Source of the DNA: Golubevia sp. BC0850
Taxonomy: Eukaryota > Basidiomycota > Exobasidiomycetes > Golubeviales > Golubeviaceae
NCBI GenBank assembly: GCA_012976225.1
Contig: JAAVVG010000016.1
Coordinates: forward strand, 372,001-436,000
Length of the DNA stretch: 64,000 bases
Reading direction: 5' to 3'
The first letter of the stretch is position 1, and every line of letters starts with the position of its first letter. Below the pieces are notes generated by a model. It did not search any database. It was not told the DNA's origin and worked only from the letters and a program-made list of their open reading frames with translations. The position numbers were made by a program, and so were the translations under genes. Below, in pieces: positions 40,243 through 44,711 of the stretch.

Positions 40243-41053
40243 AAGACTAGATTTCACAATTGAGAGCGGAGGAATTGGGTGGAGGGGGGGGCCTGTCTCG
40301 GAAACTGCAAGATAGAGGTGGCGCATATTCTTCTTCCACCGCTCGACCTAGATTTCTCGCTTCTCTCTCTCTCTCTCTTTCTCTTTTCTCTTTTGCTGTC
40401 GCACTCGCGCGTTCTCTCGGCTTTTCGTTCTTTGCTTTAGACTTATAGAAACTTTCTCTCAAATTTTGCCTTCATCGTGGAGACTCTCAAAACTTTGTAA
40501 TTAGACTTCAAAAGATTCAGATCCAAGTTTCACTTTGTTTTCCTAATCAAAGCTGGCAACGATGCTGCTGTTCGATCATTCAGAGCAATCGCTCGAAGCG
40601 GCACCTTGAAAATTTTTGGGTTGTACAAGACGACAGAAGACGAATTCGCGCGGTGGCAATCGACAAGAGGTGGCAAGAGAGAAAAATAACATATGTCCCG
40701 TTAAGATGCTCTTTAATCAGAAGTGTCAACGTGCATGACCCAGCATGAGGTAGGGGTTCTTCAAGTTACCGGGGCTAGTTCAAGAGGTTGGACGGGCGCT
40801 CATGGTGACGCGATCAAACGCAAGAGTCCATATACTCTGCACCCTCAATCGCTTGTAGCTTCAATTCAAGATCACAAATTCTCTTGTAAAGGGTTGACGG
40901 CTCTACGAAGTAGAACTTTCGCTCTTAGCTGCACCTCGTCCAGAACCTCTCCTTCAAAAACGAGGGGGTCAGACGCGGGGTTTCGATCCGACAATCAAGG
41001 TTTTGAGATAAGCTCGCCCGCCCAACATTACCAACGCCCTTTGTCTAGATTTG
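40243..41053. other. Intergenic, no gene seen
   Basis: CT-rich tract at 40350-40400 after the dehydrogenase stop, then unassigned upstream DNA of the first small-secreted-protein gene. No repeat shared with 43315-43482 was found here. Confidence 0.45.
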
Positions 41054-41063
41054 TCTATATAAG
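41054..41063 (+). promoter_or_regulatory. TATA box of small secreted protein gene 1
   Basis: TCTATATAAG about 150 bases before the ATG at 41214. The leader that follows (TTTTGCTCAACCACCTTTTC, then GATAGCCGGTCTATC) is repeated almost unchanged before the paralogue at 43891. Confidence 0.6.
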
Positions 41064-41213
41064 TGGTTTCAAACTCCAATTTCCTTTCTTCACCTAGTGT
41101 CACTCTTCATTCTTACCCTTTTGCTCAACCACCTTTTCGATAGCCGGTCTATCCCTCCATCCTTATTCATATCTCTCCAACTCTTTCCAACAACAAGCCG
41201 GTCTTATTCAACA

Positions 41214-41678
41214 ATGCACTTCACCAAAGCTCTTCTTCCTCTATTAGTTCTAGCCACCAGCGGCGTCCTGAGTGCTCCAACTCCAGCTCAAGACTTGGCT
41301 GTGGGCAACATGTTACTCTTTGGAAGAGACATGCATGTGAGCTTCCGAGTTTTTTAAAACCGGAAACATGATACTGTGCTCCGCTAAACCCAGCCTGACA
41401 CTTCCTCTGTTCTCCCTCCAACAGCCGTCGCCACTTCTTTCAGTCGAGGAATTAGAAAGGAGAGAGCCATTCCACATGGGAGCTTCAGCTCTTCTAAGAG
41501 CCGGTCAAAAGTGAGTACATACATCAATCTTAGATTTTATTTCGAACCGGAACCGGAGGTCTTCGATGCTTTGTCCTCATTGCTCAATTTGTGTGCAACC
41601 ACATTCTCTCTTCTCCCCAGGCTCAAGGGTCTTTTCGTTGGACCGAACAAGTTGGAATTCTGCGGATTTAAATGTTAA
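41214..41678 (+). CDS. Small secreted peptide precursor, paralogue 1
   Basis: Three exons: 41214-41336, 41425-41510 and 41621-41678, giving 88 residues. A signal peptide (MHFTKALLPLLVLATSGVLS, cleavage likely after the next Ala) precedes PTPAQDLAVGNMLLFGRDMH. Exon 2 ends its acidic stretch with VEELERR, a dibasic site that a Kex2-type protease could cut. Exon 3 encodes LKGLFVGPNKLEFCGFKC, ending in a CxxxC pair at the very C-terminus. There are only two Cys after the signal. A paralogue with the same exon borders and the same C-terminal core lies at 43891. Processing is inferred from the motif. No known family recognised; mating pheromone is unlikely because there is no CAAX end. Confidence 0.82.
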
Positions 41679-42450
41679 GAGAGAATTCAATTAGAGCCCA
41701 CAAAATTCGGGAAAAAGGAATCTGCTCCTCGTATCCTTTTGTTTTCTGTTTATACTTCTCTCTCTCTGCCTCTGAATGTACACACTTGTCGTAAAAACAA
41801 TATGTGGGCATGCTGTGAGCGCTAGAGCTTTTGTTACTTGGAGACTCGCGATGCATGATGCACATCGAAGTGAAGAAACAGGTTCTCGAGCTAAGAGCCT
41901 TTGGAGTGAGGTTTGTGAAAAGTGGAAGAATGAGGTTTTTGAGCAAGATTTTGTTATCCGCACTAAGTGAAGGCGAACGCGGGAACCAGACCCTCCTTCC
42001 TCCGGGCGTCGTTTCACCTCCCGGTTGGGAGATGGGTTTGCTGCCAGACTACGTCGACACGACGTACAATATGAAGGAAAAGGATGAGACAAGACGGATG
42101 TTGATAAAAGAGTGAAAGGGCTTTACGAATTGAGAGTAGCATAAAGGAAAATGATCAGTAATTTTTTTTTTTTTTTTTTTTGCAAGAGTAAGAATGCTGC
42201 CAGAGCCAAAAGTGAGAAAGGAAAGTACGTTGGGGAAGAGCGAAACAAATCTAGGAGAGTGAATCGTGTAGAAGATTGAAAGTGTGAACAAGTCTTCAAA
42301 GGCTTGAAGAGCTCCCAAAAGGTCAAACATCTACGAGAAAGCGCCAAAAGAGAGAATGTGGAAGCAGAAAGAAGGATTGTATTAGTCACTGGTCTATTCA
42401 ATAAAACGTTTACCGCAGTCATACTCACCTCTCTCAGAACCCTAACAGCT
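41679..42450. other. Intergenic in the secreted-protein locus
   Basis: Lies between convergent 3' ends. Contains a run of 20 T residues at 42162-42181 on the plus strand. No gene supported. Confidence 0.5.
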
Positions 42451-43018
42451 TCAAAAGTCTTCATCTTCTGCTTCTCTTATCTCAAAAGTAGAAGTAGACT
42501 GCGGTAAAGGTAAAGCAGAAGAATGGAAGAAGGTGAACAAAGTCAGCTCGCTTTGCATTTAGAGATTTCATGATGGAATGACTTACTTCTTCTTCTTCAT
42601 CTCTCTTCTCGAAACTAGCCAACTTCGAAAGGAAAGCCTTGCCTTCGTCTGACTTCAAGAATTCGTCTTGAGCTTCCTTGCTTTGGAAATGTTTCCAGAG
42701 TCCAACTCCTCCAAGTGCGGCTGCAGTAGACAATGTAACGGCTGTAGCAATGAGCTCCTTGCGACCGAAAGAGGCTGGTTTGGAACCGGGTGTAGATATA
42801 CCTCTGTTCTCAAAAGAGGGGAGCTTTGAAAGGAAGAGGCCAGTTGAGCAACTCGCTTTACAGGCTATATAGTAGGTCTATCAAGAAGCGTCGTGAGAAG
42901 ACCCCATGTTGGTGAAACTTACTCCAGGTTTATTTGTTTCTCCCTGAAGATCGACTGGACTAGCAGCGGAAAAAGTCGAGACGCAAGCGAGTAGTGGTAA
43001 AGAGTACCTGAGGTGCAT
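42451..43018 (-). CDS. Small secreted or membrane protein with dibasic site
   Basis: Three exons: 43018-42923, 42823-42587 and 42498-42451, closing at 126 residues. An N-terminal hydrophobic signal (MHLRYSLPLLACVSTFSAAS) is followed by a short linker, then ELIATAVTLSTAAALGGVG (about residues 53-73), which could be a weak membrane helix, then a charged helix (SKEAQDEFLKSDEGKAFLSK). It ends with FEKR, a Kex2-like site, and a very acidic tail (DEEEE, REAEDEDF). It sits between two paralogous secreted-peptide genes and is transcribed toward the first. The acceptor of intron 1 is chosen for frame closure and could be a few codons off. Family unknown. Confidence 0.68.
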
Positions 43019-43314
43019 CTTGAGAAGTAGTAGAAGAGGTAGCAAAAGAAGTAGTAGGAGAAAAGAAGGAAAAAATTGAAAAAAGAAGTGAAGACCAGCT
43101 AAACAACTTCGAAGTTTTGTTGAAAATCGATTTGTGGGGATTTGAATTAAAGGTCACTGAAACTCCTATCTTTTATACTCCAGCATTGAACTCTTCTCTT
43201 GGAGCTCTAGGTTGACCTTCAAAAAGGGCTTAACTGAATGCTCAGAATGAATTAACTGAATGCGAAAGTTACGAGCCCTCTTAGAGTCTTAAGGCGACGT
43301 GGTTGCGAGTGAAA

Positions 43315-43482
43315 CGAGCATATATACCGACCATCATGTCAACAAGCTCGAGACAAATCTCTGGTAATCAAGAATTCAAACCTCGAATCAATTTGATGTA
43401 GCGTTCGTCCACTGAAGGTCCTTTCAGCACGGTTCCATCCATCTCTCACTCGCATCCTCGAAGTGTTTCTGCTCCTAGTGAT
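43315..43482 (+). repeat. Dispersed repeat, copy 2
   Basis: Second copy of the element at 15372-15554, in the same orientation. It lies about 410 bases before the ATG of secreted-protein paralogue 2. Shared words include GCGAGTGAAACGAGCATA near its start and CTCACTCGCA near its end; a central segment differs by indels. No third copy was found in the window. Confidence 0.8.
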
Positions 43483-43727
43483 CGGGGATGGCCTATGGCC
43501 TCCTTCTTTGAGAGCTGACTCAGCGGAGAGCTTCAGAAAGAATTTTAGGCTCTTAAGCATCACAGAACGAACCAACCCCTCCTTAGCATTGTACGACTTG
43601 ATCCTCTCCTTCAAACAAAGGGGTTGGAACTTGGAAACCAGGGGGTTGATACGTTGATTCATGCCACAAGATTCTCGGATGATAAGCTTCTTCCACCGAA
43701 ATAGATATCCTCTCACTCTAGATTTTT

Positions 43728-43739
43728 CTATAAAAAGGA
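43728..43739 (+). promoter_or_regulatory. TATA box of small secreted protein gene 2
   Basis: CTATAAAAAGG about 160 bases before the ATG at 43891, at the same relative place as in paralogue 1. The leader shares TTTTGCTCAACCACCTTTCG and ATAGCCGG with paralogue 1. Confidence 0.6.
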
Positions 43740-43890
43740 CTACTTTCCTCTTCTTCTTCTCTCCTTTTCCTTACCTAGCGTCACCTCTTCCTCCTTACCT
43801 TTTTGCTCAACCACCTTTCGATAGCCGGCCTATCCTCTGACTTCACACTCTTTCACACAATCTCAAAAAACAAAGCCGGTCTTCTTCATT

Positions 43891-44357
43891 ATGCAATTCT
43901 CTAAAGCTCTTCTTCCACTATTGGTCGTAGCCATCAGCGGCGTCATCAGCGCTCCAACTCCAGCTCAAGATTTGGACTTGGCTGTTGGAAACATGTTACT
44001 CTTGGGGAGAGACATGCATGTGAGTTTGTCCTTCTTGATTGGAAAAACTAGCAGTAGAGATTTCATGGACTTGGTGAGACGCGTTCTTAGACTTCATGCG
44101 CCCTTCTTTCAACAGCCGTCGCCACTTCCTATCGAGGAACTGGAGAGGAGAGACCCATTAGGCGCAGCTCTTTTAAGAGCCGGCTCAAAGTAAGTACAAC
44201 CATTTCATCAGACCCTGTTCCGAACACAGGATGGCGTCTTTCTAGTTTGTCCTCTTCCTCGAGTCATGTTAACGTCGCTGTACCTTCTACCACTTCCAGG
44301 CTCAAGGGACTCTTCGTAGGACCAAACAAATTGGAGTTCTGTGGAAGACACTGTTAG
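43891..44357 (+). CDS. Small secreted peptide precursor, paralogue 2
   Basis: Three exons: 43891-44019, 44116-44189 and 44300-44357, giving 86 residues. Intron positions and phases equal those of paralogue 1 at 41214. Signal MQFSKALLPLLVVAISGVIS, then APTPAQDLDLAVGNMLLLGR. The dibasic site is IEELERR, followed by DPLGAALLRAGSK and LKGLFVGPNKLEFCGRHC. The C-terminal core LKGLFVGPNKLEFCG is identical in protein to paralogue 1, but seven of its 15 codons differ at silent positions. Between the dibasic site and the core, paralogue 2 is three residues shorter. The conserved part is presumably the active peptide. Regulation probably parallels paralogue 1 because the leader is duplicated too. Confidence 0.82.
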
Positions 44358-44711
44358 GTTGATCAACAATGCTCTTCCGGGAAAGGAATCTGCTCATGGT
44401 TTCATCCTCTTGTTGTATCTTCCTACTATCTGACACGTGATTATTGTTTACGTTTGGCGCGCTGAGATCTGAGACCTGAGACCTGAGACTCGAGATCCAT
44501 CGAAGAATTGAACGAAGACACTCTTCGTCCTCCGGTTCGCATAGTGTTGCAGAGCCAGATTATCCAATCAAATTCTGAGCACCTGCAATCGATAGTGCCT
44601 CTAGTTGATGTAATCATTGATTACTCTAAAATAAGGGGGAGTTGAAAATTTTCCTTTTTGCTTCGGAGAAACAAATGATAAAATGTGCTTTGTTCGCTAG
44701 AAAGGCAGCGC
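44358..44711. other. Intergenic between convergent genes
   Basis: Contains GAGACCTGAGACCTGAGACT, a short tandem repeat near 44466-44494. Otherwise unassigned 3' flanks. Confidence 0.5.

Follow-up and report, generated by a model that had tools for sequence, protein, structure and literature searches.

The window analysed here is a 64,000-nt stretch of Golubevia sp. BC0850 (C7:372001-436000 of a 25.77 Mb genome in 64 contigs). It carries two tandem genes, genes 1 and 2, each read as a spliced three-exon model with a predicted signal peptide and an RR site. Reading both upstream regions shows a short hairpin-like element, GATAG-CCGGN-CTATC, 57–75 nt 5' of either ATG. The exon models, taken from a preliminary description of this DNA, hold up as given, with GT...AG introns of 88 and 110 nt in gene 1 and of 96 and 110 nt in gene 2; the proteins are 88 and 86 amino acids long, and their splicing, secretion and cleavage are modelled. 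A third paralogue, gene 3, lies on contig C64 (L007, 4573-5036), encodes 96 residues with the C-terminal IKGLFVGPNKINLCGKKCNTNESWLDY, and has its introns at the same positions and in the same phases (0 and 2). The features at genes 1 and 2, in window coordinates, are as follows.

41139..41153, + strand: hairpin-like element GATAG-CCGGT-CTATC, 61-75 nt before the gene 1 ATG
41195..41205, + strand: weaker second copy AAG-CCGGT-CTT with a 3-bp stem, near the gene 1 ATG
41214..41336, + strand: gene 1 exon 1, signal peptide and conserved leader block AVGNMLLFGRDMH, ending in phase 0
41425..41510, + strand: gene 1 exon 2, PSP...EELERR (Kex2-type site, RR codons 41458-41463), then EP...LLRAGQ
41621..41678, + strand: gene 1 exon 3, LKGLFVGPNKLEFCGFKC and stop; intron 2 in phase 2
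43820..43834, + strand: hairpin-like element GATAG-CCGGC-CTATC, 57-71 nt before the gene 2 ATG
43873..43883, + strand: weaker second copy AAG-CCGGT-CTT with a 3-bp stem, near the gene 2 ATG
43891..44019, + strand: gene 2 exon 1, signal peptide and leader block AVGNMLLLGRDMH, ending in phase 0
44116..44189, + strand: gene 2 exon 2, PSPLPIEELERR (RR codons 44146-44151), then DPLGAALLRAGS
44300..44357, + strand: gene 2 exon 3, LKGLFVGPNKLEFCGRHC and stop

We read genes 1–3 as single-product secreted-peptide precursors with a 5' element that is common to about 34 precursors and would place them under joint control, and we give this reading a probability of roughly 0.6. Searched genome-wide with up to one mismatch, RATAGCCGGYCTATC has 11 matches against 1 for the reversed pattern, and 10 of the 11 precede a signal-peptide precursor (L026 is the exception). 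The pattern RTAGCYGGNCTAY, with no mismatch allowed, has 49 matches against 10 for its reversed-pattern control. Thirty-five of the 49 lie 54–110 nt before a same-strand signal-peptide open reading frame (ORF), compared with 119 of 6,000 random window positions (2%), a lenient control because such positions are mostly far from gene starts. Signal peptides were called by a simple heuristic (an ATG 50–160 nt downstream that begins an open frame, a hydrophobic N-terminus whose first 14 residues are free of acidic ones, and small-x-small). On the antisense side, none of the 12 matches with sufficient flank has such an ORF. Among the outer pairs, 33 are G-C, 12 A-T, 3 G-T and 1 A-C, hence 45 of 49 are complementary (Fisher p=6e-8, which overstates the evidence because related genes are counted separately), and T-A also occurs (L071). 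A signal-peptide ORF follows 34 of the 45 matches with a complementary outer pair and 1 of the 4 others. When loop position 2 is a purine (CRGG), there are 11 matches (control 2), 6 of them complementary.

Gene models for the 35 precursors come from a simple splice predictor, and several are plain paralogues of one another; their 3' parts are rough, because the predictor misplaced the last exon of the C64 gene. At least one dibasic KR or RR past residue 20 is present in 30 of the 35 models and at least two in 22 (overlapping sites counted, with no background rate), and 32 of the 35, several of them paralogues, have phase 0 at the end of exon 1, the exon that encodes the signal peptide. One of the 35, L107, looks like a membrane permease by eye and is probably a false positive, and 4 of the 14 misses (L103, L104, L112 and L113) precede likely precursors or precursor pieces that fail the ORF rule. 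Two similar genes past the element, L087 (C7:133900-134960) and L088 (C7:139050-140110), have predicted products resembling membrane proteins more than secreted precursors.

A second, protein-first route yielded further precursors, beginning with proteins similar to that of the gene between genes 1 and 2. Among 17 upstream regions picked with the motif-derived family set aside, a CNGG-loop hairpin of at least 4 pairs is found in 10, compared with 3.1% of 510 window segments; the 17 include genes 1–3 and L060, which was found both ways, as well as L062, which came from a motif-derived query and has no hairpin. Twelve altered loops were tried on the same regions: nine give 0 of 17, and the other three (CC.G 7/17, GC.G 4/17 and.CGG 7/17) overlap the same CCGG words. 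Taking all 24 precursor upstream regions together, the hairpin is present in 16. The remaining 8, which include the middle gene (no CNGG-loop hairpin within 250 nt upstream) and most of its close relatives, lack it, so that not every precursor bears the tag. A common tag on about 35 secreted-peptide genes suggests joint control, which we infer from the oriented element R-TAG-CYGGN-CTA-Y, 54–110 nt before the ATG of about 34 precursors, most of them with Kex2-type sites. One relative of the repeat-type precursors, L055 (C10:360300-362500, ~526-663), looks like a decayed copy: its GATAGCCGGACT runs straight into the signal-peptide frame, with no nearby ATG.

What the element is made of is a separate question, on which two readings are equally likely. 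The first, for which we would put the odds somewhat short of even, is a hairpin of the Smaug-recognition type in the 5' untranslated region (UTR), bound by the Vts1 orthologue of this genome. The consensus loop of the Smaug recognition element (SRE) is CNGGN0-3, and Drosophila Smaug targets were best predicted by a G preceding the loop (PMC4053848; this and the other papers cited here are drawn on in excerpt). The present loop agrees with this consensus, being C, pyrimidine, G, G and then 0–2 bases, with a G in front. The candidate reader, L075 at C2:131892, matches PDB chains of Vts1 with E-values from 1.5e-16 to 3.6e-16 and keeps LRLHKY and LGARRK, which by their spacing hold the RNA-contacting residues named in PMC9893680. 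Vts1p of S. cerevisiae stimulates mRNA decay (PMC3468468); binding by the orthologue in this genome would permit simultaneous repression or decay of the peptide mRNA set. Rfam gives no match at E up to 1 within 40900-44400. Among public gene 3 variants whose 5' region is read through, P0003 has one residue change, S to P, inside the element, as a substitution at the free fifth base of the loop could give; in P0002, P0004 and P0005 the same stretch is unchanged.

Several results speak against a hairpin read by Vts1. Using ViennaRNA, the closing pair has P>0.5 in only 6 of the 35 precursor 5' regions (median 0.10), in 4 of the 14 other RTAGCYGGNCTAY matches and, with other flanks, in 8 of 17; the values for genes 1 and 2 themselves depend on the flanks chosen, being 0.62 and 0.85 under one choice and 0.00 under the other. 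The three inner pairs are invariant, as set by the RTAGCYGGNCTAY pattern, and recur in 15 of the 16 hairpins of a 23-region scan (motif-found regions included), although SRE stems are said to be non-specific. The CCGG loop of genes 1–3 is not a preferred one in yeast and human (PMC4053848), and the rarity of the CRGG version (11 matches) is not predicted by an SRE alone. The position of the element within the mRNA is itself read from the genomic sequence, and the arm types could represent a few ancestral events spread by duplication.

Folding in context is thus weak, and we therefore keep a DNA reading beside the RNA one. It takes the element as a double-stranded dyad with fixed TAG and CTA arms, either a transcription factor site or a core promoter part, and it would make the joint control transcriptional; the odds are again a little below even. 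Arm symmetry and covariation suit a dyad as well as a hairpin, and the sequence-fixed inner arms and the weak predicted RNA folding also favour it. The A-T class of the element holds two inverted GATA-like words, which we take as a further point for a dyad. However, the CYGGN centre lacks symmetry and points the same way as the gene (35 of 49 on the sense side and 0 of 12 on the antisense side), and its length varies from 4 to 6 nt among members found through protein similarity (loops of 4, 5 and 6 nt in L066, L068, L069, L070 and L071). In addition, all 7 of the element-bearing genes with a TATA-like word have it 77–148 nt upstream of the element; such a word is found within 250 nt or less in 10 of 23 regions, 3 of these 10 being without the element. 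The gene-wise orientation, the asymmetric centre and its variable length speak for RNA, though the two readings stay level in our odds.

The sequence around the element also brings to mind a splice feature of a 5' UTR intron, in which a pyrimidine-rich tract would lead to a TAG acceptor and a conserved exon start. The 20-nt flanks are indeed 80% pyrimidine and G-poor across the 35 precursor genes, and TAG is fixed, but the pyrimidine richness goes on downstream of the element, and an acceptor leaves the arm covariation, CYGG and the CTA arm unexplained. We consider this very unlikely.

Turning to the proteins, LKGLFVGPNKLEFCG is identical in genes 1 and 2, and we reproduce the preliminary count of seven silent and no replacement differences over its 15 codons. 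The peptide was described as C-terminal, which it is not, given that protein 1 runs on to CGFKC and protein 2 to CGRHC. The claim that this core is under special constraint fares differently in the two comparisons that can be made. Between genes 1 and 2, synonymous and nonsynonymous differences stand at 7:0 in the core and 16:19 in the rest (Fisher one-sided p=0.009, with borders picked post hoc), in support of it; against gene 3 the core gives 6:6 and the rest 26:40 and 28:35 (p=0.35 and 0.48), so that the contrast is lost, which tells against a privileged core. Gene 3 replaces 4 of the 15 core residues and keeps KGLFVGPNK and both Cys. Genome-wide (25.8 Mb, up to 2 mismatches), GLFVGPNK occurs in 3 places, all of them in genes 1–3, and the control in none.

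The region before the core had been described as variable. This is true mainly of the signal peptide and of the 16 residues from RR to the core, a stretch that is the loosest part apart from the last three residues of the protein, but not of the exon-1 block AVGNMLLxGRDM, which has 3 silent differences and 1 replacement in 12 codons between genes 1 and 2. Residues invariant in genes 1–3 include, in the leader (gene 1 numbering), A29, G31-L35 and G37-M40, and elsewhere EEL.RR, the P two places past RR, KGLFVGPNK, both Cys and the Gly after the first Cys. As judged from these alignments, the constrained segments are two: the leader block and KGLFVGPNK...C..C. Genes 1 and 2 might instead be a recent tandem duplicate, their identical core having no special meaning, and the tandem arrangement and 82% protein identity are what such a pair would show. 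Yet seven silent changes in 15 core codons oppose a very recent copy or conversion there, and KGLFVGPNK is kept in the diverged third copy on another contig, so this explanation is most improbable. Over the core (41621-41678 against 44300-44357), dS, the synonymous divergence, is about 2.0 on 10 sites and exceeds that of the rest (0.40), an unexplained excess on few sites.

The statement that the core belongs to no known family stands within what was searched: the proteins of genes 1–3 have no Pfam match at E up to 0.01, GLFVGPNK is in no paper of the open-access library, and the protein collection holds no core-containing homologue from outside this species, only relatives of the leader exon. 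Searching 22 candidates gave one match, P0001, which is gene 2 with one exon 1 difference and intron 1 read through. Searching 3149 candidates gave six, among them P0002-P0005, which represent gene 3 with its 5' region and an intron translated as well, and P0006, a diverged leader exon (...GLAIGNMMLVGRDM) that is not seen in this genome and is therefore probably from a relative. A query of exons 2 and 3 matched none among 40 candidates (E up to 10). The core had been expected in relatives; none of the three protein searches found it there, and it comes so far from this genome only, whereas the single instance of P0006 suggests leader conservation beyond this species, perhaps in one more organism.

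The proposed layout of signal peptide, pro-part, Kex2-type RR and short Cys-containing peptide is borne out by the sequence. Each of genes 1–3 has a sole dibasic site, L-E-R-R or L-N-R-R, with RR at P2-P1 and Leu at P4, in agreement with the Kex2 motif of PMC8528282, in which Leu is preferred at P4. A Kex2-like gene is present at C5:266553, with a P domain match, a membrane-spanning tail and a subtilase part read by eye. The core as first drawn does not, by contrast, appear to be the functional product: the leader block is conserved too, and genes 1–3 have no dibasic site before LKG and none that supports a product starting at LKG or ending CG. The likely product therefore comprises the 34 or 31 residues past RR in genes 1 and 2, and predicted products before trimming span 31–41 residues in genes 1–3. 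The residues directly past RR are EP or DP in all three genes; X-P following a Kex2 site is counted as a STE13 signature (PMC6339444), and L092 and L110, two further precursors of this genome, have EP after KR.

Maturation would then begin with removal of the signal peptide in the endoplasmic reticulum, continue with a Kex2-type cut past L-x-R-R and end with trimming of the E-P or D-P dipeptide by a Ste13-type aminopeptidase. The peptides predicted to be freed have 32, 29 and 39 residues and net charges of +4, +4 and +5 in genes 1, 2 and 3, respectively; each would be a cationic peptide of about 29–39 residues, carrying KGLFVGPNK and a C-x-x-x-C pair that is probably closed by a disulfide. Acting outside the cell, such a peptide would most likely serve as a signal or against competitors. 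A membrane-active helix finds no support, the amphipathicity of the three peptides not exceeding that of shuffles (p=0.17, 0.54 and 0.58), and this counts against our main reading. Among 16 hand-picked peptides of other precursors, 3 (L058b, L099 and L114) have p<0.05, uncorrected. Basidiomycete lipopeptide pheromones end in CaaX. Genes 1–3 lack a C-terminal CaaX and end in CGFKC, CGRHC or ...WLDY. A ustiloxin-type RiPP (dikaritin), cyclised by UstYa, would have a UstYa/DUF3328 gene nearby; no PF11807 match was found in the genome, and the control genomes were silent too.

The freed peptide may also be a host-directed effector or toxin-like product of the type that is processed from a pro-domain. 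Like the K2PP effectors (PMC8528282), genes 1–3 have one mature product past an N-terminal pro-domain and a canonical Kex2 motif, and a cationic peptide with two Cys would suit such a role. Unlike them, genes 1–3 have a product of 31–41 residues before trimming, no Pfam family and, so far, a description drawn from sequence. The core is moreover kept among three paralogues and the same 5' element precedes many visibly different precursors, both of which speak against this role; we regard an effector as unlikely, if worth keeping in mind.

With KEPs (PMC6339444, PMC7329392 and PMC9769878), genes 1–3 share a signal peptide, dibasic KEX2 sites and an X-P (STE13-type) dipeptide next to them. KEPs, however, require at least 3 similar repeats between sites (PMC6339444), whereas genes 1–3 carry one product and are therefore not filed as KEPs. 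The excerpts of the same three papers make no mention of a common 5' element. In the open-access library, no paper was found that pairs 'KEX2-processed' with 'untranslated region', and among titles and abstract starts on Kex2, Vts1 and the Smaug element none reports this gene set. Basidiomycete strains have a mean of 5.30 KEPs (PMC7329392), a figure not comparable with the present count, which has no repeat requirement. KEP-like genes with the same 5' element do occur, with repeats judged by eye: L105 (C27:119730-120780) has three LIIPSIISSLISGKEG units after KR and the element in its G-T form, L054 (C10:449000-452500) has repeated exons with IIINGK/VIINGK...RPY...WLLSTYNKK units past RR, and L110 has two repeat units. 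Ascomycete alpha-type pheromone precursors likewise have a Kex2 site followed by a Ste13-type dipeptide (PMC6339444), but genes 1–3 are without repeats, have two Cys and have no Pfam match. With SRE/Vts1 targets (PMC4053848, PMC3468468 and PMC9893680) the present genes share the CNGGN loop, the preceding G and a Vts1 orthologue with its RNA-contacting residues; they differ in the fixed inner stem, the pyrimidine at loop position 2 and the site before the ATG, and the set consists mostly of secreted-peptide precursors, which are putative Vts1 targets.

Joining these lines, one may tentatively propose, at odds clearly below even, a regulon of at least 34 secreted Kex2-type precursors with different cores, marked by one oriented 5' UTR hairpin that is read by Vts1, in which the signal exon and 5' end may be a module captured by new cores. 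The phase 0 of exon 1 in 32 of 35 models would fit such a shared module. A common ancestry of the family of genes 1–3 and the repeat-type family by way of leader homology is not supported, at an hhalign probability of 1.8% on the leader. If the proposal is true, one RNA-binding protein gates much of the secreted-peptide repertoire of this organism. Fungal genomes encode many Kex2-processed secreted peptides with largely unknown functions (PMC9769878). With a short searchable 5' tag that marks such precursors, one could follow directly when the set is made, find precursors with a single core (genes 1 and 2 among them) that escape searches built on repeats, and test cleanly for joint control of the set by one regulator.

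On one side of genes 1 and 2 lies a gene for glutamate dehydrogenase and on the other a gene for nucleoside diphosphate kinase; the gene between genes 1 and 2 is as follows.

42587..43018, - strand: secreted precursor of another family (MHLRYSLPLLACVSTFSAASPVDLQG ... SKEAQDEFLKSDEGKAFLSKLASFEKR)

Its first two exons are at 43018-42923 and 42823-42587, and its 3' end is uncertain. This middle gene matches 13 more places in the genome, on C4, C8, C12, C17, C33 and C61, and several of these relatives have multiple SKEA...SKLAS.E.R units.

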